This document shows, piece after piece, positions 22,248 through 31,743 of a stretch of 44,501 nt of DNA. Made by a program: the position numbers and the translations under genes. Source of the DNA: Streptomyces sp. SBT349 (GTDB lineage Bacteria; Actinomycetota; Actinomycetes; Streptomycetales; Streptomycetaceae). The stretch is from assembly GCF_001083795.1 (NCBI RefSeq), contig NZ_LAVK01000017.1:1-44501 (forward strand), given 5' to 3'. The first letter of the stretch is position 1. Every line of letters starts with the position of its first letter. The notes under the pieces were generated by a model. The model made no database searches. It was not told where the DNA came from and worked only from the letters and a program-made list of their open reading frames with translations.

Positions 22248-22416
22248 CTAGGGTCTGTCCGGCGAATCCTCGCGGGCTCCCGACGCCGGCTACGGCACCT
22301 CGCCGCGTTACCGAATCGCCCCGGTACGACCAAGTACGAGGGGCGACCCGGTGCCTTGCGATGCACCGCATCCGACGCCGCTCGCTATCCACGAAGATCC
22401 GCCGGACAGACCCTAG
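22248..22416. mobile_element. MITE-like element with 28-bp imperfect terminal inverted repeats
   Basis: The ends CTAGGGTCTGTCCGGCG and its inverse CGCCGGACAGACCCTAG match perfectly for 17 bases, and the match continues to 28 bases with three mismatches. Total length is 169 bp, too small for a transposase. The inside also folds: CGCCCC and GGGGCG flank a GTAC-containing loop near 22318-22347. GTCTGTCCGGCG ends are familiar to me from repeats between Streptomyces genes, but I could not verify this. The right end supplies the TAG stop codon of the CoxG-like gene. CTAG at each end may be the duplicated target. Short open frames across it are not credible genes. Confidence 0.7.
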
Positions 22417-23303
22417 CGACGGCGCCGGAGGGCGCGGGTGATCAGGACTGCGGTGGCCACGGCCATGGCCGCCGCGGGGGCCGCCCAGCGGAGGGTGGCG
22501 GCGCCCGAGGAACGGCCCGGCGCGGGCTCGGGGGCGTAACGGCCCCGGGGCGGCGCGTGGTCCACCTCCTCCGCGCTGCGGCCGATCATCGTGCGACGGG
22601 CGAAGTCCGCCTCCGGCTCGGGCAGGAGGCCGGACTCGTCCTCCTCCACCGCCGGGTCGAGCGTGGGCGGCGGGATGTCGATGTCCGGAAGCTCGGGCTC
22701 GGGCTCCGCCTCCGCCGAGGGCTCGGGCTCGACCGGGGGCACCTCCCGGATCGCGTCCGGTGGGGGCACCTCCCGGACGGAGTCTGGGGGAGGGATTCCC
22801 GGGATGGCCCGCTCGTTGTCGTCGGGCTCGCCGATGCCGCCGCCCACCGCCGGAGGCTGCCGCTCCTCGTCCGCCAACTCGTCCGCCAGCGCCTCGGCGA
22901 AACGATCCAGCAGCCGGCGCCCCGCCGCCTCGCGCTGCTCGGCCTCGACGTCCTCCATGCGCCCCTTCGCCTCCACCGTGCCGGTGAACGCCAGCACCGT
23001 GCCCGTCCCGTCCTCGGCCTCCCGCGGCGCCACGGTGAGCAGCAGCGTGGCCGTCCCCGAGCCCCGGGCCTCGTGGCCCTGCGCCTCGACGGTGAAGGAC
23101 TCGCCCCCGCCGGTCACCGTCAGACCGCCGCGGTAGGTGATGGTCGAGGAGCCGATGCGCAGCCGCAGGCGGCCCGCGGGGGCGAGGGGATCGCCCTCCG
23201 GGTCGAGCTGGAGCCCCGGCACGCAGCGGGCGACCCGCTCGGGCCGGCCGAGCGCACTCCGCACCGTGGAGGGGGCATACGGCAGGAAGACCTCGTGCTC
23301 CAT
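22413..23303 (-). CDS. SRPBCC/CoxG-like protein with C-terminal membrane anchor
   Basis: A 296-residue protein. Residues 1-150 form an SRPBCC (START-like) domain of the CoxG type: MEHEVFLPYAPSTVRSAL, VARCVPGLQLDPEGD, RLRIGSSTITYRG, then a C-terminal helix RRLLDRFAEALADEL. A long acidic proline-rich linker follows (about 155-260; repeated REVPPPD), then one membrane helix (AAPAAAMAVATAVLITRAL) and a RRRR end. The domain therefore faces the cytoplasm and is tail-anchored. Function is unknown; CoxG proteins bind small hydrophobic ligands or help membrane assembly of molybdoenzymes, none of which are nearby. The TAG stop lies in the terminal repeat of the adjacent element. TAGGCT ends seven bases before the ATG, suggesting a leaderless transcript. 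Confidence 0.85.
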   Translation of the reverse strand: MEHEVFLPYAPSTVRSALGRPERVARCVPGLQLDPEGDPLAPAGRLRLRIGSSTITYRGGLTVTGGGESFTVEAQGHEARGSGTATLLLTVAPREAEDGTGTVLAFTGTVEAKGRMEDVEAEQREAAGRRLLDRFAEALADELADEERQPPAVGGGIGEPDDNERAIPGIPPPDSVREVPPPDAIREVPPVEPEPSAEAEPEPELPDIDIPPPTLDPAVEEDESGLLPEPEADFARRTMIGRSAEEVDHAPPRGRYAPEPAPGRSSGAATLRWAAPAAAMAVATAVLITRALRRRR

Positions 23304-23310
23304 GGCGCGG

Positions 23311-23316
23311 AGCCTA
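23311..23316 (-). promoter_or_regulatory. Probable -10 box for leaderless CoxG-like mRNA
   Basis: TAGGCT on the minus strand is seven bases from the ATG at 23303, the spacing expected when transcription begins at the start codon. TGCCTT lies 17 bases further upstream as a weak -35. The TAG of this box is also the stop codon of the truncated spermidine-synthase-like gene. Confidence 0.45.
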
Positions 23317-24147
23317 CCCACTGCCCGGCGCATAAGGCACTCCCGCTGGCAAAAGCACCGGATGTGCCGCCGCTCGGCCGACCGGGTGCTCCCGCACCTC
23401 CTCCTCGGCGGACCGCTCCAGGGGACCGACGGCCGCCGCGCAGGCGAGCAGCACGCCGACCACCGCGGCGTTGAGCAGGAGGAGGCGGCGCCTGACCCGC
23501 CGGGACAAGTCGCCGCGGAAGAGCCACAGCACCACGACCGCGCCCGCGAGCGCGTTGACCACGCCGGTGCACAGCGCGGCGTTCAGCTGGCCGAGCAGCG
23601 GGAGCAGAAGAAAAGGGAACGCCAGCCCGCCGAGCAGCGCCCCGACATAGTCGGCCGCGGAGAGATCCGCCACCGCGCGGTCGGCGTCCTGCTCGCGGAT
23701 GCGCTGGATCAGGGTCATCAGCAGCGGCATCTCCGCCCCGATCAGCACGCCTATGGCGAGCGAGAATCCCACCAGCAGCGGCCTCGCGTCGCCGAACATC
23801 AGGAAGCAGAGGTGCAGCGCCGTCGCCGAGCAGCCGCCGACCAGCGCGAGCACCGCCTCGATCAGGCCGAAGTTGGCCGCGGCGTGCACCCGGAGCCGCT
23901 TGGCACCCAGCGAGCCGATGCCCATGGCGAAGACCATCAGCGACAGCACGATCGACGTGTAGGTCACGGTGTCGCCGACCAGGTAGTCGGCGAGCGCGAT
24001 GAGCTCCAACTCGTAGACCAGGCCGCAGGCGGCGCAGATGAAGACGGCGACGAGAACCAGAAAACGCCCGATCCCCGCCGATACGGGAAGCCCGTCAGCC
24101 GCTGGACGCACGGCCGTTGGGCTGTCGGCTTCGGGCGTGTCGATCAT
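23314..24147 (-). CDS. Spermidine synthase-like membrane protein lacking its catalytic domain
   Basis: A 277-residue membrane protein with seven predicted helices ([115 protein letters not shown]). This matches the N-terminal half of the long actinobacterial SpeE-like proteins of 500 or more residues. In those the helices precede a Rossmann aminopropyltransferase domain; here the chain ends 39 residues after the last helix with an unrelated-looking tail ([21 protein letters not shown]). The next gene starts 11 bases later, so no room is left for the enzyme domain, in any frame. It overlaps the DUF2617 gene by four bases (ATGA). It may be a decayed gene or a retained membrane module. Confidence 0.85.
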
Positions 24148-25084: not shown

Positions 25085-26830
25085 ATGACGCGAATCGGCA
25101 CAACGTCGAGGCTCGTCGCGGCCATGCTAGGGGGCGTTCTCGTCCTCAGCGCGTGCGGCGGCGACGACGACGACGGCAGCGGCGAGGAGAACGAGAACGG
25201 CGGCTCGGGCGGCACCGTCACCTACGGAATGGCCCAGCCGTTCCAGAGCTTCAACAACACCACCGCGTCGGCCAATACCGTCGCCAACGGCCAGGTGCTG
25301 GAGAACGTCACCTCCGGCTTCTGGACCTTCGGCAACGAGGACGGCCAGCTGGTCCCGGACACCGACTTCGGCACGTTCGAGCAGACCAGCGACGACCCGC
25401 TGACCGTCGACTACACGATCAACGACGCGGCGGTCTGGTCGGACGGCGAGTCCATCGACTGCGACGACATCCTGCTGTGGTGGAGCGCGCAGAGCGGCGC
25501 CATGGACGGCCTGTTCTCCGCGATCGGCACCGACGGCGTCGAGGACACCGCGATGCCCGACTGCCAGGCGGGCGGCAAGGCGTTCCAGCTGGTCTACAGC
25601 ACGCCCTTCGCGGACTGGCAGTTCAACGGCCCCAGCCACGGCAACACCACGATGATGCCCGCGCACGTCGTCGCCGAGCAGGGCGGTCTGTCCCCCGAGG
25701 AGTTCCTGGCGGCGCTTCAGGAAGGCGACGGGGCCGCGCTCCAGGAGGCGGCCACCTTCTACAACGAGGGCTGGGCGATCGACGGTGCCCTGCCCGACCC
25801 CGCGCTCATCCCCTCCTCCGGTCCCTACGTCATCACCGGCTTCGAGCCGGAGCAGTCGGTGACGCTGACCAGGAACGAGAACTACTGGGGCGAGCCGGGC
25901 ACGGCCGACACCATCGTCATCCGCACCATCGCGGAGGAGGAGCAGGTCGCGGCCCTCCAGAACGGCGAGGTGGACATCATCGAGCCGCAGCCCACGGTGG
26001 ACATGGCCAACCAGATCACCGGGGCCTCCACCATCGAGTCGCAGGTCGCCGAGGAATACACCTACGAGCACCTCGACTTCAACTTCAACGAGGGCCCGTT
26101 CGCGGACTCGCTCCCGCTCCGTCAGGCGTGGGCGCTGTGCACCCCGCGCGAGACCCTCGTGCAGAATCTGATCCAGCCGGTCGTCCCCGACGCGACCACC
26201 AAGGACGTCCGCAACGTGGCGCCCTGGGACCCGGGTTACGAGGTCTCGATCGAGACGGCGGGCGACGCCATCGCGGAGTTCGGCCAGCAGGACATCGAGC
26301 GCGCGCGGCAGATCCTGGAGGAGGAGAACGCGGTCGGCACCCAGGTCACCTTCAGCACCCTGGACAACCAGCGGCGCAACGACGCGGGTCAGCTGATCAC
26401 GGCCGCCTGCGAGGAGGCCGGCTTCGACGTCGAGTTCACCGCCGAGCTCGACTTCTTCGACAGCCGTCTCCCGGAGAACCGCTTCGACGTGGCCATGTTC
26501 GCCTGGTCGGGCTCGCCCGACCGCTCCGGCTGGAACTCCACCTACCGCACCGTGGGTGAGTGCTCGCCGACCGGCAAGGGCAACAACAACGGCTGCTACT
26601 CCAGCGAGGAGATGGACGCCCTGCTCGACGAGGTGCTGGTCACCTCCGACATGGAAGAGGCCGACCGGATCACCGGTGAGATCGAGGCGCTGCTCTGGGA
26701 GGACATGGTGACGATTCCGCTGTACCAGCACCCGGGTATCACCGCCTGGAACCCCGACGTGCAGAACGTCGTCCCCAACCCCTCGCAGAACGGCATCACC
26801 TGGAACGCCGACTCGTGGAGCAGAAGCTGA
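25085..26830 (+). CDS. Oligopeptide ABC importer substrate-binding lipoprotein (family 5)
   Basis: A 581-residue extracellular lipoprotein that captures peptides or similar solutes for the adjacent transporter. The signal sequence ends in the lipobox LSAC with the lipidated Cys at residue 24, followed by an acidic stalk (DDDDGSGEENENGG). The SBP family 5 core is clear: TVDYTINDAAVWSDGESI, SSGPYVITGFEPEQSVTLTRN, ENYWGEPG, then PLRQAWALCTPRETLVQNL and FSTLDNQRRNDAGQLITAACEEAGFDV. It is the first gene of a five-gene operon. A GC-rich hairpin separates it from the first permease. The ligand cannot be deduced, although family members in Streptomyces include peptide importers required for development. 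Confidence 0.94.
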   Translation: MTRIGTTSRLVAAMLGGVLVLSACGGDDDDGSGEENENGGSGGTVTYGMAQPFQSFNNTTASANTVANGQVLENVTSGFWTFGNEDGQLVPDTDFGTFEQTSDDPLTVDYTINDAAVWSDGESIDCDDILLWWSAQSGAMDGLFSAIGTDGVEDTAMPDCQAGGKAFQLVYSTPFADWQFNGPSHGNTTMMPAHVVAEQGGLSPEEFLAALQEGDGAALQEAATFYNEGWAIDGALPDPALIPSSGPYVITGFEPEQSVTLTRNENYWGEPGTADTIVIRTIAEEEQVAALQNGEVDIIEPQPTVDMANQITGASTIESQVAEEYTYEHLDFNFNEGPFADSLPLRQAWALCTPRETLVQNLIQPVVPDATTKDVRNVAPWDPGYEVSIETAGDAIAEFGQQDIERARQILEEENAVGTQVTFSTLDNQRRNDAGQLITAACEEAGFDVEFTAELDFFDSRLPENRFDVAMFAWSGSPDRSGWNSTYRTVGECSPTGKGNNNGCYSSEEMDALLDEVLVTSDMEEADRITGEIEALLWEDMVTIPLYQHPGITAWNPDVQNVVPNPSQNGITWNADSWSRS

Positions 26831-26901
26831 CCGGCGGCAGGCCCCGGCCCGCCGTCCGGCGGATTCCTTAGCCGCCGAACGGCATCGCGTCACCCGCCAG
26901 T

Positions 26902-26933
26902 GGGGCCGGGGGTCCGCCAAGACCCCCGGCCCC
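26902..26933 (+). terminator. Intercistronic hairpin between binding-protein and permease genes
   Basis: A perfect 13-bp stem (26902-26914 and 26921-26933) with a six-base loop. It lies 72 bases after the binding-protein stop and 100 before the permease start. Such hairpins in importer operons often terminate part of the transcripts or protect the upstream message, giving an excess of binding protein. Confidence 0.65.
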
Positions 26934-27032
26934 GCCTGCTGTTGTCCGCTGTTGTCACCGGGCCCGACCCGGGCCCGCTCCCCCTGACCGTCCCCGACCA
27001 CCCTCAACCCCCTGATCCCCAGGAGTTGCGCC

Positions 27033-28544
27033 ATGCTCGCCTTCATCGTGCGGCGGCTCTTCGTCTCGATCTGGGTCTTCCTCGCCGCCTCGGTGGTGAT
27101 CTTCTTCCTGGCGGTGAACGTCCGCGACCCGCTGTCCGAGGCCCGGCAGTTGCCAGGCCCGGCCCAGGAAACGGCCGTCGCCGAGATCACCGAGCGGATG
27201 CGCCTGGACGACCCGGTTTTCCTCCGCTACTTCCGCTGGCTCGCCGACGCCGTCACCGGTGACCTCGGCGTCAACCGCCAGGGCCAGGACGTCAACGCCA
27301 TGCTGGAAGGCGCGTTCACGGCAACGCTGCAACTGGTCACCGGCGCGACGGCGCTGGCCATCGTCGTCGGCATCACCATCGGCGTGATCTCGGCGTTGCG
27401 GCAGTACACGGCCCTCGATCAGACCGTCACCTTCGTCGCCTTCATCTGCTTCTCGCTGCCGGTCTTCTGGATCGGCACGCTGCTGAAGCAGTTCCTCGCC
27501 CTCGACTTCAACGACTGGCTGGCGGAGCCGACGATCTCGCCGCTGTTCATCGGCGGCATCTCACTCATCACGGGCATGGCCTGCGCCTCCCTGATCCTGG
27601 GCGACCGCAGAACGCGGCTGATCGCGTTCGCGCTGAGCGCCGCGGCGATGGCGTGCCTGCTGGCCGTGCTGTCGGCCACCGAGTGGTTCGCGGACCCCGG
27701 CCTCGGCCCCGTGGTCGTCGCCCTCACCGCCCTCGGCGGCGCGCTCGGGTTCGCGACCCTGGTGAGCGGCCTGGAGTGGCAACGCCCCCTCCAGGCGGCC
27801 CTGATGGCCGCGGGCGCGGGCGTGATCGCCATGTTCGCCCTCGACCCGGTCCTCGACGACCCCTCGCTGATCACCCTCGGCGGGCTCGCCGTGCTGACCG
27901 CCGCCGTCTGCTTCGGCATCGGCTGGGCCTGGGGCGGCGAGCTCTACCGGGAGGCCGCCATCCCGGCCGCGATCTTCACCGGCCTGTTCACCGGCGCGGT
28001 GATCTTCACCGATCGCATGCTGATGAACTTCGACAACTACTCCGAGTCCGTCGGCGGCCGTCCCGTCTCCACCGTGGGCGCCGAGACGCCCAACTACGAG
28101 GGAACGTTCTGGGAGTCGGGGCTCGACTCGATCGGCCACCTCGCGCTGCCGACGCTCGCGCTGGTGCTGCTCTCGCTGGCCAGCTACACGCGGTACACCA
28201 GGGCGAGCATGCTGGAGGTCATGAACCAGGACTTCGTGCGCACCGCGCGGGCCAAGGGCCTGACCGAGCGCGCGGTCATCACCCGGCACGTCCTGCGCAA
28301 CGGCTTCATCCCCATCACCACCCTGGTCGCCTACGACATCGGCGCCATCCTCGGCGGCGCCGTGGTGACCGAGCAGGTGTTCGGCTGGTCGGCCATGGGC
28401 CGCCTGCTCTTCACCGGCATCGAGCAGGGCGACCCGATGCCGATCATGGCGTTCTTCCTGGTCACCGGCGGCGCCGTCGTGGTCTTCAACATGCTCGCGG
28501 ACATCGCCTATGCCTTTGTCGATCCGCGTATCCGGCTGTCGTAG
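27033..28544 (+). CDS. Oligopeptide ABC importer permease (DppB/OppB type) with extra membrane helices
   Basis: A 503-residue permease. The family's N-terminus (LAFIVRRLFVSIWVFLAASVVIFFL), the helix pair at 95-150 and the coupling loop DFVRTARAKGLTERAVITRHV (about 400-420) with its C-terminal helices are all standard. Usual length is 300-350. The excess lies in the periplasmic loop before HLALPTLALVLLSL: about residues 168-330 carry some six additional hydrophobic segments (for instance LFIGGISLITGMACASLIL, LITLGGLAVLTAAVCFGIGW). An even number keeps the topology of the core. It is second in the importer operon; the next permease starts 15 bases after its stop. Confidence 0.92.
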   Translation: MLAFIVRRLFVSIWVFLAASVVIFFLAVNVRDPLSEARQLPGPAQETAVAEITERMRLDDPVFLRYFRWLADAVTGDLGVNRQGQDVNAMLEGAFTATLQLVTGATALAIVVGITIGVISALRQYTALDQTVTFVAFICFSLPVFWIGTLLKQFLALDFNDWLAEPTISPLFIGGISLITGMACASLILGDRRTRLIAFALSAAAMACLLAVLSATEWFADPGLGPVVVALTALGGALGFATLVSGLEWQRPLQAALMAAGAGVIAMFALDPVLDDPSLITLGGLAVLTAAVCFGIGWAWGGELYREAAIPAAIFTGLFTGAVIFTDRMLMNFDNYSESVGGRPVSTVGAETPNYEGTFWESGLDSIGHLALPTLALVLLSLASYTRYTRASMLEVMNQDFVRTARAKGLTERAVITRHVLRNGFIPITTLVAYDIGAILGGAVVTEQVFGWSAMGRLLFTGIEQGDPMPIMAFFLVTGGAVVVFNMLADIAYAFVDPRIRLS

Positions 28545-28559
28545 AGGAGCTGACCGGTC

Positions 28560-29582
28560 GTGACACAGAACCCACCGGCCTCCGCGCCGGAGAAGGACCC
28601 GGCGGGCCTGCGCAAGGGCCCGCCACCCGAGGCCGCCGATGCCGCGCAGGGCATGACGGTCGTCGCCCGTTCCCAGGGGCAGCTGATCCGGCGCCGGTTC
28701 TTCCGGCACCGCGGCGCCCTGGCCGGAATGGCGCTGCTGCTCTTCGTGGTGGTCCTCGCCATCACCTCCATCGGCGCGGGGCCGATCCCCGGCTGGTGGG
28801 ACAAGGAGCCCACCGCCACCGGGGCCGTCGTGAACAACGGCGACCCGACCCTCGGGCTGCTCCCGGGATTCCTCGGCGGCGGCGGCATCCACTGGGGCGA
28901 ACACCCCTTCGGCCAGGACAACATCGGCCGTGACTACTTCGCCCTGACCATGCGCGGCACCCAGGTCTCGCTGCTGATCGCGATCATCGTCGGCCTGGTC
29001 GCCACGATCACCGGCACCGTGATCGGCGCCACCGCGGGCTACTTCCGCGGCTGGACCGAGGCCGTCCTGATGCGCGTGACCGACGTGGTCATCGCCATCC
29101 CGACGCTGCTGATCGCGGGCCTCATCGGCGTGATCATCGCGGACAAGGGCGTGGTGCTCTTCGCGCTCTTCCTCGGCCTGGTGGTCTGGACCCAGATCGC
29201 CCGGCTGGTGCGCGGCGAGGTGCTCTCGTTGCGCGAGAAGGAGTTCGTGGAGGCGGCCCGTTCGGTCGGAACCCCCTCCCACCGGATCATCTTCAAGCAC
29301 ATCCTGCCGAACACGATCGGCATCATCATCGTCGCCGCCACCCTCGCGATCGCCAGCGCCGTGCTCCTGGAGTCCGCGCTGTCCTTCGTCGGGCTCGGCG
29401 TCCAGCCCCCCGACACCTCGCTCGGCCGGCTGATCACCGACTACCGGACGGCGCTGACCGTGCGGCCCTGGCTGTTCTACTGGCCCGGCCTGTTCATCGT
29501 CGCCATCGCGCTGTCGGTCAACTTCATCGGCGACGGCCTGCGCGACGCCTTCGACCCCCGACAGACCCGGGTGCGTGACTGA
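28560..29582 (+). CDS. Oligopeptide ABC importer permease (DppC/OppC type)
   Basis: A 340-residue inner-membrane permease starting at GTG (VTQNPPASAPEKDP). After a cytoplasmic N-terminus of about 45 residues comes the first helix with FFRHRGALAGMALLLFVVVLA, a periplasmic segment containing HPFGQDNIGRDYFAL (a hallmark of DppC proteins), then five helices. The coupling loop is LREKEFVEAARSVGTPSHRI, and the C-terminus has the conserved NFIGDGLRDAFDP. The start is just after GAGGAG. It overlaps the next gene by a single base (TGATG). It pairs with the preceding long permease to form the channel. Confidence 0.95.
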   Translation: MTQNPPASAPEKDPAGLRKGPPPEAADAAQGMTVVARSQGQLIRRRFFRHRGALAGMALLLFVVVLAITSIGAGPIPGWWDKEPTATGAVVNNGDPTLGLLPGFLGGGGIHWGEHPFGQDNIGRDYFALTMRGTQVSLLIAIIVGLVATITGTVIGATAGYFRGWTEAVLMRVTDVVIAIPTLLIAGLIGVIIADKGVVLFALFLGLVVWTQIARLVRGEVLSLREKEFVEAARSVGTPSHRIIFKHILPNTIGIIIVAATLAIASAVLLESALSFVGLGVQPPDTSLGRLITDYRTALTVRPWLFYWPGLFIVAIALSVNFIGDGLRDAFDPRQTRVRD

Positions 29583-30715
29583 TGTCCCTTCCTCCTGCCA
29601 CCCCCTCCGTGCCCTCCCCGGCCGCGCCCCTGGACGCCGCGGTCACCGAGGCCGCGGAAGAGGTCCACACCGCCCGGACGCTGGCCGACTCCCGGCCGCC
29701 GAGCGACGAGGAGATCCTCACCGTCGAGAACCTGACGGTCGAGTTCCCCACCGACGACGGCCTGGTCAAGGCCGTCCGCGGCGTGGACTACACGCTCCAC
29801 GCCCGCGAAGTCCTCGGCATCGTGGGCGAGTCGGGCTCCGGCAAGTCGGTCTCCTCGATGGCCCTGATGGGCCTGCTCCCGAAGAACGCCCGCGTCCGCG
29901 GCTCCATCCGCTACCGCGGCCAGGAGCTGCTGACGATGCGCCCCAGGGAGCAACGGGCCCTGCGCGGCCGGAAGATCGCCATGATCTTCCAGGACCCCAT
30001 GACCTCGCTCAACCCGGTCCGCAGCATCGGCGACCAGCTCGCCGAGGCCGTTCTCGCGCACCACCTGGTGCCCCGCAGGAAGGCGCTGGGCCGGGCCAGG
30101 GAGATGCTGGACCTGGTCGGCATCCCGCAGCCCGAGAAGCGGCTGCGGGCCTACCCCCACGAGTTCTCCGGGGGCATGCGGCAGCGCGTGATGATCGCGA
30201 TGGCCATCATCAACGACCCGGACATCATCATCGCCGACGAGCCGACCACGGCCCTGGACGTCACCGTCCAGGCGCAGATCCTGGAGAAGCTCCTGGAGGT
30301 CAAGGACGCGGTCAACGCGGCGATCCTCCTCATCACGCACGACCTGGGCGTGATCGCGGGCATGGCGCACAGGACGCTGGTGATGTACGCGGGCAAGCCG
30401 GTGGAGATCGGCGGCACCGACCAGGTCTTCTACGAGCCGCGCATGCCGTACACGGCCGGCCTGCTGGGCTCCATCCCGTCCCTTGAGGGCGAGCGGGACG
30501 CCCGGCTGCGGCCCATCACCGGCACCCCGCCCTCGCTGATCCACCTGCCCCCCGGGTGCCCGTTCTCGCCGCGCTGCCCGCTGGCCACGGACATCTGCCA
30601 CGAGGACGAGCCCGCCATCACCGACACCGGCGACGCGCACTACGCCGCCTGCCACCACAGCGACCTGCTGGCCGAGGCGGAAGACGCCACGGCGTTCTTC
30701 AAGGAGGGCCGATGA
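29582..30715 (+). CDS. Oligopeptide ABC importer ATPase (DppD/OppD type)
   Basis: A 377-residue ATPase. An Ala/Pro-rich N-terminal extension of about 40 residues precedes the domain. Walker A is GESGSGKS at 82-89, the signature is [15 protein letters not shown], and Walker B is [16 protein letters not shown] with the switch His in LLITHDLG. The C-terminal oligopeptide domain has [14 protein letters not shown], the cysteine cluster that in related importers binds an iron-sulfur cluster. It overlaps the next ATPase gene by four bases (ATGA), and the upstream permease by one. Confidence 0.95.
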
Positions 30716-31743
30716 CGACCGAGACCGAACCGAGGAAGGACCCCGTCGACAGCACGCCGGACGAGCTGCTGCGCGTCACCGACCTCGTGGTCAACTTCCC
30801 CGTGCGCGGCGGCGGTCTGGTCCGCCGGATCACCGGGCAGGTCCAGGCCGTCAGCGGCGTCTCGTTCGCCGTGGGCAGGGGCGAGACCCTGGGCGTGGTG
30901 GGCGAGTCGGGCTGTGGCAAGTCGACCACGGGGCGGGCCGTGCTCCAGCTCATCAAGCCCACCTCGGGCTCGGTGCGCTTCGAGGGGCAGGAGATCACCT
31001 CCCTGTCCGGCAACGGGCTGCGGCAGGTGCAGCGCAGCGCGGGCATGGTCTTCCAGGACCCGTACGCCTCGCTCAACCCGAAGCTGCCGGTCAACGACAT
31101 CGTCGCCGAGCCGCTGAAGGTGGCGGGCCGGTGGCGTTCCAGCGGCAAGAAGCGCGTGGCCGAGCTGCTCGAACTGGTCGGCCTGAGCCCCGAGCACGGC
31201 AACCGCTACCCGCACGAGTTCTCCGGCGGCCAGCGCCAGCGCATCGGCATCGCCCGCGCGCTGGCGCTCGAACCCAAGCTGCTGGTGCTCGACGAGCCGG
31301 TGTCGGCGCTCGACGTGTCCGTGCAGGCGGGCGTGGTCAACCTGCTGGAGGACCTTCAGGACCGGCTCGGCGTGGCGTACGTCTTCATCGCGCACGACCT
31401 GTCCGTGGTCCGCCACATCTCGGACCGGGTGGCGGTGATGTACCTGGGCAAGGTGGTGGAGACGGGCACCCGCGAGGACGTGTACGAGCGGCCCTCCCAC
31501 CCGTACACCCAGGCGCTGCTGTCGGCGGCGCCGCTGGCCGACCCCCGGAAGGAACGCGCCAGGCGGCGGACGGTGCTGACCGGCGACGTGCCGAGCCCGC
31601 TCGACCCGCCGAGCGGCTGCCGCTTCCGCACGCGGTGCTGGAAGGCGCAGGACATCTGCGCCACGGAGGAGCCCAGGCTGAAGGAGCGCGGCTCGGGCCA
31701 TCCGGTCGCGTGCCACTTCGCCGAGGACGCGGAGGTCATCTGA
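30712..31743 (+). CDS. Oligopeptide ABC importer ATPase (DppF/OppF type)
   Basis: A 343-residue ATPase and the last gene of the importer operon. Walker A is GESGCGKS at 64-71, the signature [15 protein letters not shown], and Walker [17 protein letters not shown]. The C-terminal domain carries [17 protein letters not shown], the paired cysteine cluster. The N-terminal [15 protein letters not shown] is the F-type block that distinguishes it from the D-type partner. AAGGAGG precedes the ATG. It is convergent with the thiamine-binding gene, with 32 bases between the stops. Confidence 0.95.

Follow-up and report, generated by a model that had tools for sequence, protein, structure and literature searches.

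The window, a stretch of 44,501 nucleotides from Streptomyces sp. SBT349, contains a complete importer operon at positions 25085-31743, which codes for a substrate-binding protein (SBP), two permeases and two ATPase halves, all with clear Pfam matches (Table 1). In the translation of the SBP gene a lipobox-like LSAC motif can be read, and the nearest solved relatives of the protein are 6wm6 (E 1.4e-30), which we take to be the EDTA binder EppA, and OppA from Mycobacterium tuberculosis (Mtb; 8j5q_A, E 1.7e-24). The EppA protein itself is the subject of PMC7312458, as far as the accessible part of that paper goes. In the list of open reading frames the start ATG of the DppF/OppF gene overlaps the stop of the preceding gene, and the Pfam and NCBIfam scan of this protein was performed on a stretch starting one codon before position 30712. 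The source genome contains 16 DppB-type places, counted from the list and including the gene at 27033-28544, and the latter was the sole match there to a profile of the insert described below.

Two genes on the opposite strand were identified near the operon. The one at 22413-23333 (-) codes for a CoxG-like protein (PF06240, E 6.3e-5) whose C-terminus is apparently a membrane helix. The other, at 23314-24147 (-), codes for a membrane protein of 277 residues with zero matches in the Pfam scan; by its translation it looks like a spermidine synthase-like protein that ends early, after its front half, and the gene is possibly truncated or frameshifted.

Table 1. Importer genes of the window and parts of the domain inserted into the DppB-type permease
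Feature	Position	Strand	Evidence
Substrate-binding lipoprotein (SBP family 5)	25085..26830	+	PF00496, E 1.4e-41
Long-form DppB/OppB-type permease, 503 aa	27033..28544	+	Pfam, PDB chain alignment, AlphaFold2
Inserted domain of six membrane helices, residues about 166-342, extracellular TM3-TM4 loop	27528..28058	+	alignment junctions, AlphaFold2
Hairpin repeat 1, residues 164-219 (helices 170-187, 192-215)	27522..27689	+	hhalign, shuffles
Hairpin repeat 2, residues 220-275 (helices 225-244, 251-269)	27690..27857	+	hhalign, shuffles
Hairpin repeat 3, residues 276-331 (helices 279-~300, ~305-331)	27858..28025	+	hhalign, shuffles
DppC partner permease, lengthened TM1-TM2 extracellular loop with Gly-Trp-Trp	28560..29582	+	PF00528, E 2.9e-30
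ATPase DppD/OppD	29582..30715	+	PF00005 and PF08352
ATPase DppF/OppF	30712..31743	+	PF00005 and PF08352

The first permease is encoded by 503 codons without interruption. It matches BPD_transp_1 (PF00528) with 108.9 bits (gathering score 26.4), the match being stretched across residues 113-501. Solved OppB/DppB chains align only to the ends of the protein, with residues 3-151 or 1-181 and then 341-503 or 364-501 in the two alignments shown. The AlphaFold2 model of the full permease, calculated from an alignment of 112 rows, has a pLDDT of 85.8 and a pTM of 0.74, and its core superposes on solved OppB/DppB chains with Z 23-30, for Mtb OppB (8j5q_B) with Z 29.9 over 325 of 325 chain residues at 2.5 A. 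This bears out the sequence-only reading, in which the DppB core helices and the coupling loop had been called normal. None of the NCBIfam equivalogs (Opp4B, NikB, DppB and others) reaches its curated cut-off on this protein, the best score being 216.3 bits versus 450. As expected for an Opp/Dpp-type (PepT) permease, the operon provides an SBP of family 5, a second permease and two ATPase halves. Solved members of this class have a short TM3-TM4 loop and six core helices, whereas the window protein has 212 residues between K152 and D365, seven other long forms have 210-215 and eight short forms 19-43, so that the permease is a variant rather than a standard member. It is an Opp/Dpp-type DppB with an intact core and part of a putative ATP-driven importer of the peptide/opine/nickel type.

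About 177 extra residues account for the difference, with junctions set by alignment with the eight short relatives. A hydrophobic block had been noted before at residues 168-330 (nucleotides about 27534-28022); the block is real, but its borders lie slightly further out. Hydropathy averaged over the 112-row alignment has six peaks within the insert. After the four helices of the first two hairpins, the AlphaFold2 model has a helix at 279-331, which is given by DSSP as a single stretch. It was read as two helices, 279-~300 and ~305-331, since it is too long for one crossing, since two hydropathy peaks flank a polar GGELYREA turn, and since, together with the preceding helices, it superposes on helices of an RND pump which we take to be four separate ones. 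When residues 165-340 were modelled alone, a pLDDT of 94.2 and a pTM of 0.81 were obtained. Alignment, hydropathy and AlphaFold2 thus agree with the earlier proposal of a membrane domain inserted into an extracellular loop; a fold outside the membrane was looked for and not found. An influence of this domain on substrate choice, or its coupling to another protein, as also proposed there, is hypothetical.

The inner loops of the insert contain on average 3.05, 1.55 and 1.74 lysine and arginine residues, compared to 0.49 and 0.24 in the first two outer loops; the third outer loop (16 residues) is not poor in K+R, with 1.70 next to 1.96 D+E. From this charge bias and the helix parity, both ends of the insert most likely lie outside and the orientation of the core is kept, as had been argued beforehand from an even number of helices. 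The helices themselves are nearly free of charge, with a mean of 0-2.5% per helix and charged residues in at most 42% of the sequences at any helix column. With 2.32 bits the insert is the least conserved part of the protein (core, 2.83 and 3.31 bits). An outer loop at the start of hairpin 2, WFxxPGLG, is conserved, with W218, P222 and G225, of which P222 and G225 are invariant in the 112 rows. In hairpin 3, D327 is present in 97% of rows.

Three two-helix hairpins in tandem, repeated with a period of 55-56 residues, make up the insert, a feature which had not been recognized in the sequence-only reading. Comparison by hhalign of repeat 1 with repeat 2 gave 94% (E 1.3e-7) and of repeat 2 with repeat 3 81% (E 1.3e-5), in both cases with 0 of 100 block shuffles scoring as high. 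For repeat 1 versus repeat 3, 54% (E 1.3e-4) was obtained with one of 100 shuffles scoring as high, which is weak on its own. The best single block-shuffled profiles reached 64, 30 and 68% probability, reversed repeat profiles gave nothing above 5%, and in 18 comparisons involving a core segment the best value was 2.3%. When windows were slid across the insert with no preset borders, the offset was 55 or 56 in 35 of the 35 comparisons shown. The case for a threefold repeat is based on the two neighbouring pairs and this constant offset. In the window protein, a D/E-P motif opens every hairpin and the polar turn of each contains an arginine. At the level of sequence, the insert has been shown to comprise three copies of a two-helix hairpin.

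The insert alone was searched against membrane families and known folds, as had been proposed with the sequence-only reading, and neither a convincing Pfam family nor a solved fold was identified. For the window insert, the Pfam scan returned only PF07695, with 11.2 bits versus a gathering score of 29. Among the 112 members (E <= 1), the commonest match was TgpA_N, in 23 members with a best E of 0.0073, and the lowest E among the 25 families listed was 2.9e-4, for Bax1-I. In Foldseek searches of the insert model, solved structures gave nothing at E <= 0.001 (best E 1.7) and viral structure models no match (best E 0.87), and the insert profile did not match PDB sequences (best E 0.19). Since solved structures and viral models were searched, the fold may already be known among predicted cellular structures. 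Searched against 118 genomes, the insert profile gave 17 matches at E <= 9.5e-50, with the next at 2.6e-4; all 17 belong to uninterrupted frames 503-567 residues long, and the insert was thus not seen as a protein of its own in these genomes. L179 and L180 each gave a weak hit to a protein which from our own reading of the translations was named MenA or Lnt; both hits were taken as chance and not as kinship.

In total, 151 long-form sequences were collected, including the window protein and repeats of some genes, of which 112 remained after thinning at 93% identity. Cut at the start of the window protein, they are 502-521 residues long across 37-90% identity. An artefact of assembly or frame, or chance, was rejected, since so many sequences (with the window and repeated genes counted) carry the insert at a retained length. 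A search with the window permease found 216 relatives; 80 of these were kept, and all 80 are from Actinomycetota by their titles. The insert matched 72 of 394 genomes of a class sample at E <= 0.001, 68 of them strongly (E <= 3.4e-16) and four weakly (G292, G061, G164 and G334). In a phylum sample, which shares genomes with the class sample, eight of 396 genomes matched, six strongly, and two of these six (G460 and G530) are outside the class; the two weak matches (L186 and L187) were not permeases when the translations were read. Within the genus the insert is rare, with strong matches in seven of 199 genomes including the source genome. Whole genomes were sampled from Actinomycetota, and other phyla were covered through a plasmid collection, in which 3398 records matched the C-terminal core and a single one the insert; this record, from Nonomuraea, has the size of a chromosome.

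Homologues with and without the insert were thus both found, as the sequence-only reading had called for. A tree was calculated from 52 long and 43 short permeases after deletion of the insert, and in it the long forms formed one clade (SH-aLRT 99); it was made by a quick method with no bootstrap, several short rows are long-branched and the root is for drawing only. Most of the short forms nearest to this clade belong to a different family of the order. The sequence-based tree agrees with a single gain of the insert, probably in Actinomycetota. The possibility raised earlier that the long form is the common actinobacterial type with a known role holds to the extent that it is a recurrent subfamily; as the usual form it was rejected, being a minority form by the class and phylum counts, and no role was found in the literature searched. 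This literature, from which subscription papers were mostly absent, included PMC3654945 and PMC3924187, which deal with the topology and inventory of transporters, and in the accessible parts no description of the insert or of its role was found.

In the window, the operon lies between a DUF2617 and a YbjN gene, with a gap of 7.4 kb. These two genes are 1.9-9.6 kb apart in seven relatives of the genus, with the same order and strand as in the window in six of them and on opposite strands in G007. Five of the gaps (1.9-3.7 kb) are too small for the operon, and in the remaining two genomes, G009 and G013, an insert match is absent. From this, the operon seems to have been gained or lost at a fixed site.

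The operon is conserved around the long permeases. An SBP gene was identified upstream of 150 of 151 and a DppC gene downstream of 150 of 151; L031 and L130 each lack one of these neighbours where their contig ends, and for L047 and L093 the SBP gene lay beyond the distance limit of one count but is present in the locus listing. An ATPase gene follows 119 of 151. Among the 32 without one, the available sequence ends within 1.5 kb in 31, and the last is the first of the tandem pair in L162. In loci of at least 8 kb, 118 permeases were followed by two ATPase frames (61), one long frame (56) or a short frame (one).

The DppC partner was found to differ as well. Between two flanking anchors, its TM1-TM2 loop has 49-79 residues (median 64) in long operons compared to 42-57 (median 42) in 21 short ones, with overlapping ranges. 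A Gly-Trp-Trp motif is present in this loop in 150 of 150 long operons (109 of 109 after thinning at 93%), versus none of 47 others, namely 21 short operons, 11 neighbouring operons and 15 paralogues of the own genome, the last number being obtained from 19 rows by removing the partner itself and three repeated rows. Elsewhere in the protein, the motif occurs in two of 18 thinned short-operon DppC proteins, and in the core, not the loop, of two of the 15 paralogues. It is well supported by these sequences that the DppC loop was probably derived together with the insert, which, like the threefold repeat, goes beyond the sequence-only reading. Since both features arose in one clade, their co-occurrence may reflect shared descent rather than contact.

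Among known systems, Mtb OppB (8j5q_B), E. coli DppB/OppB (8z1v, 8z21) and Mtb DppB (8wd9_B) share with the window permease the core fold, the coupling loop, the operon partners and the helices of the TM1-TM2 loop, which lie at residues 35-38, 42-56 and 62-75 in the AlphaFold2 model; the window system differs from these by the six extra membrane helices and the derived DppC loop. Closest in the tree is a sister clade of short OppB-type permeases (L002-L015, L017, L028), in which L002-L015 are flanked, as in long-form operons, by genes for an SBP, a second permease and an ATPase. In contrast to the long form with about 212 residues, six aligned members have 28-37 residues at the TM3-TM4 position, and their DppC loop lacks Gly-Trp-Trp. 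MalF of the maltose importer is likewise an enlarged permease: in the accessible part of PMC3654945, it is described as having two extra helices at its N-terminus and a long insert between its TMS 3 and 4, whereas the window permease has six membrane helices between core TM3 and TM4.

In Opp/Dpp importers, the SBP captures the substrate, DppB and DppC translocate it and two ATPase halves drive transport. We favour, tentatively and at somewhat less than an even chance, an ordinary ATP-driven importer of this kind whose extracellular mouth would bear an accessory membrane scaffold. A DppB of the Actinomycetota would once have gained a membrane domain of three hairpins in its extracellular TM3-TM4 loop, predicted to form a separate six-helix bundle, which would lie next to the core within the membrane and have its two ends on the outer side. 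The conserved DppB outer loop and the co-derived DppC Gly-Trp-Trp loop suggest that these two elements could build an enlarged scaffold, which would hold or orient the membrane-anchored SBP during substrate hand-over, while the bundle itself would transport nothing. Against this role is the position of the known SBP-facing element of DppB: in the accessible part of PMC12136057, the scoop motif of E. coli DppB which enters the SBP is located in the TM1-TM2 loop, not in TM3-TM4, and DppB and DppC are described as differing in both of these periplasmic regions. The insert would add to such a TM1-TM2 element and not replace it.

A serious rival, if an unlikely one, is that the bundle is a recruitment platform which binds another membrane protein for localisation or regulation while the core transports alone. 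Precedents are the TMD0 domains of TAP and TAPL, described in the accessible parts of PMC3437018 and PMC6199259 as accessory membrane domains beside an intact core; the analogy is one of working, TMD0 being terminal in an exporter and the insert internal in an importer. The autonomy of the bundle, which is well folded when modelled alone, almost uncharged in its helices and apart from the core, fits such a platform. However, beyond the importer itself no partner gene is common to the 35 loci compared, in which the most frequent extra genes are PH-like (14 of 35) and TypA/BipA-like (9 of 35), and a platform alone does not explain the DppC loop. A combination can also be considered, doubtful as it is, in which a hairpin-triplication module, inserted once, and the matching DppC loop would form a new kind of extracellular platform on which the lipid-anchored SBP or another protein could dock, as the importer counterpart of the exporter TMD0.

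Distinctly unlikely is the view of the insert as structural ballast, in which a hairpin was duplicated, became fixed by chance and does no more than stabilise the permease, with little influence on function. The low conservation of the insert, its plain hydrophobic helices and its patchy distribution in the genus are in line with this, but its length is kept within few residues and outer-loop residues are invariant in the 112 sequences, which were collected by score so that decayed forms could be missed. That the bundle forms a lateral, lipid-side route or second site for an amphiphilic substrate, or is a small carrier itself, is very improbable. In its favour, model residues 61-175 superpose loosely on the RND pump helices of 6iok_F (Z 8.0, 112 residues, 3.8 A), a Z in the range of arrangements common among helical bundles; the Foldseek result and the scarcity of helix charges argue against it.

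ABC importers are usually viewed as having an invariable membrane core, to which soluble parts are added. The long-form permease has a membrane domain added to its middle, and this addition is conserved. Its evolutionary route can be seen in the hairpin triplication, short forms of a sister clade are available for comparison, and the partner subunit carries a co-derived mark. A direct test thereby becomes possible of how importers gain membrane domains and of the role of such domains in SBP hand-over in cells lacking an outer membrane.

Several further observations were made at the long-form loci. The PH-like gene codes for a small membrane protein and lies antisense between DppC and a single ATPase gene, for example at L096:8078-8686 (-). 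The L096 copy contains a bacterial PH domain (PF10756, E 3.5e-7), the Pfam scan of the L153 copy gave no match, and in L160 a relative is located upstream of the operon instead. The TypA/BipA-like GTPase gene lies downstream on the same strand, for example at L093:10767-12740 (+), the copy on which the Pfam assignment was made; L041 has a relative upstream and L081 one on either side. In L237, a gene which reads as MshB-like follows. This neighbourhood recalls the order typA-lpqW-mshB, presumably that of mycobacteria, in which LpqW is an SBP-like lipoprotein of lipoglycan synthesis. A link of the operon SBPs to LpqW was dropped as doubtful, since LpqW is not their nearest solved relative, with E 1.8e-8 for the window SBP, 5.1e-8 for a Gordonia one and once no match at E 1e-6. 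Genes of a second, short-form Dpp operon were identified upstream on the same strand in ten loci (L096, L097, L100, L101, L104, L107, L108, L146, L149 and L150), and L162 contains two tandem long-form sets of SBP, DppB and DppC, the second of which is followed by a single ATPase gene.
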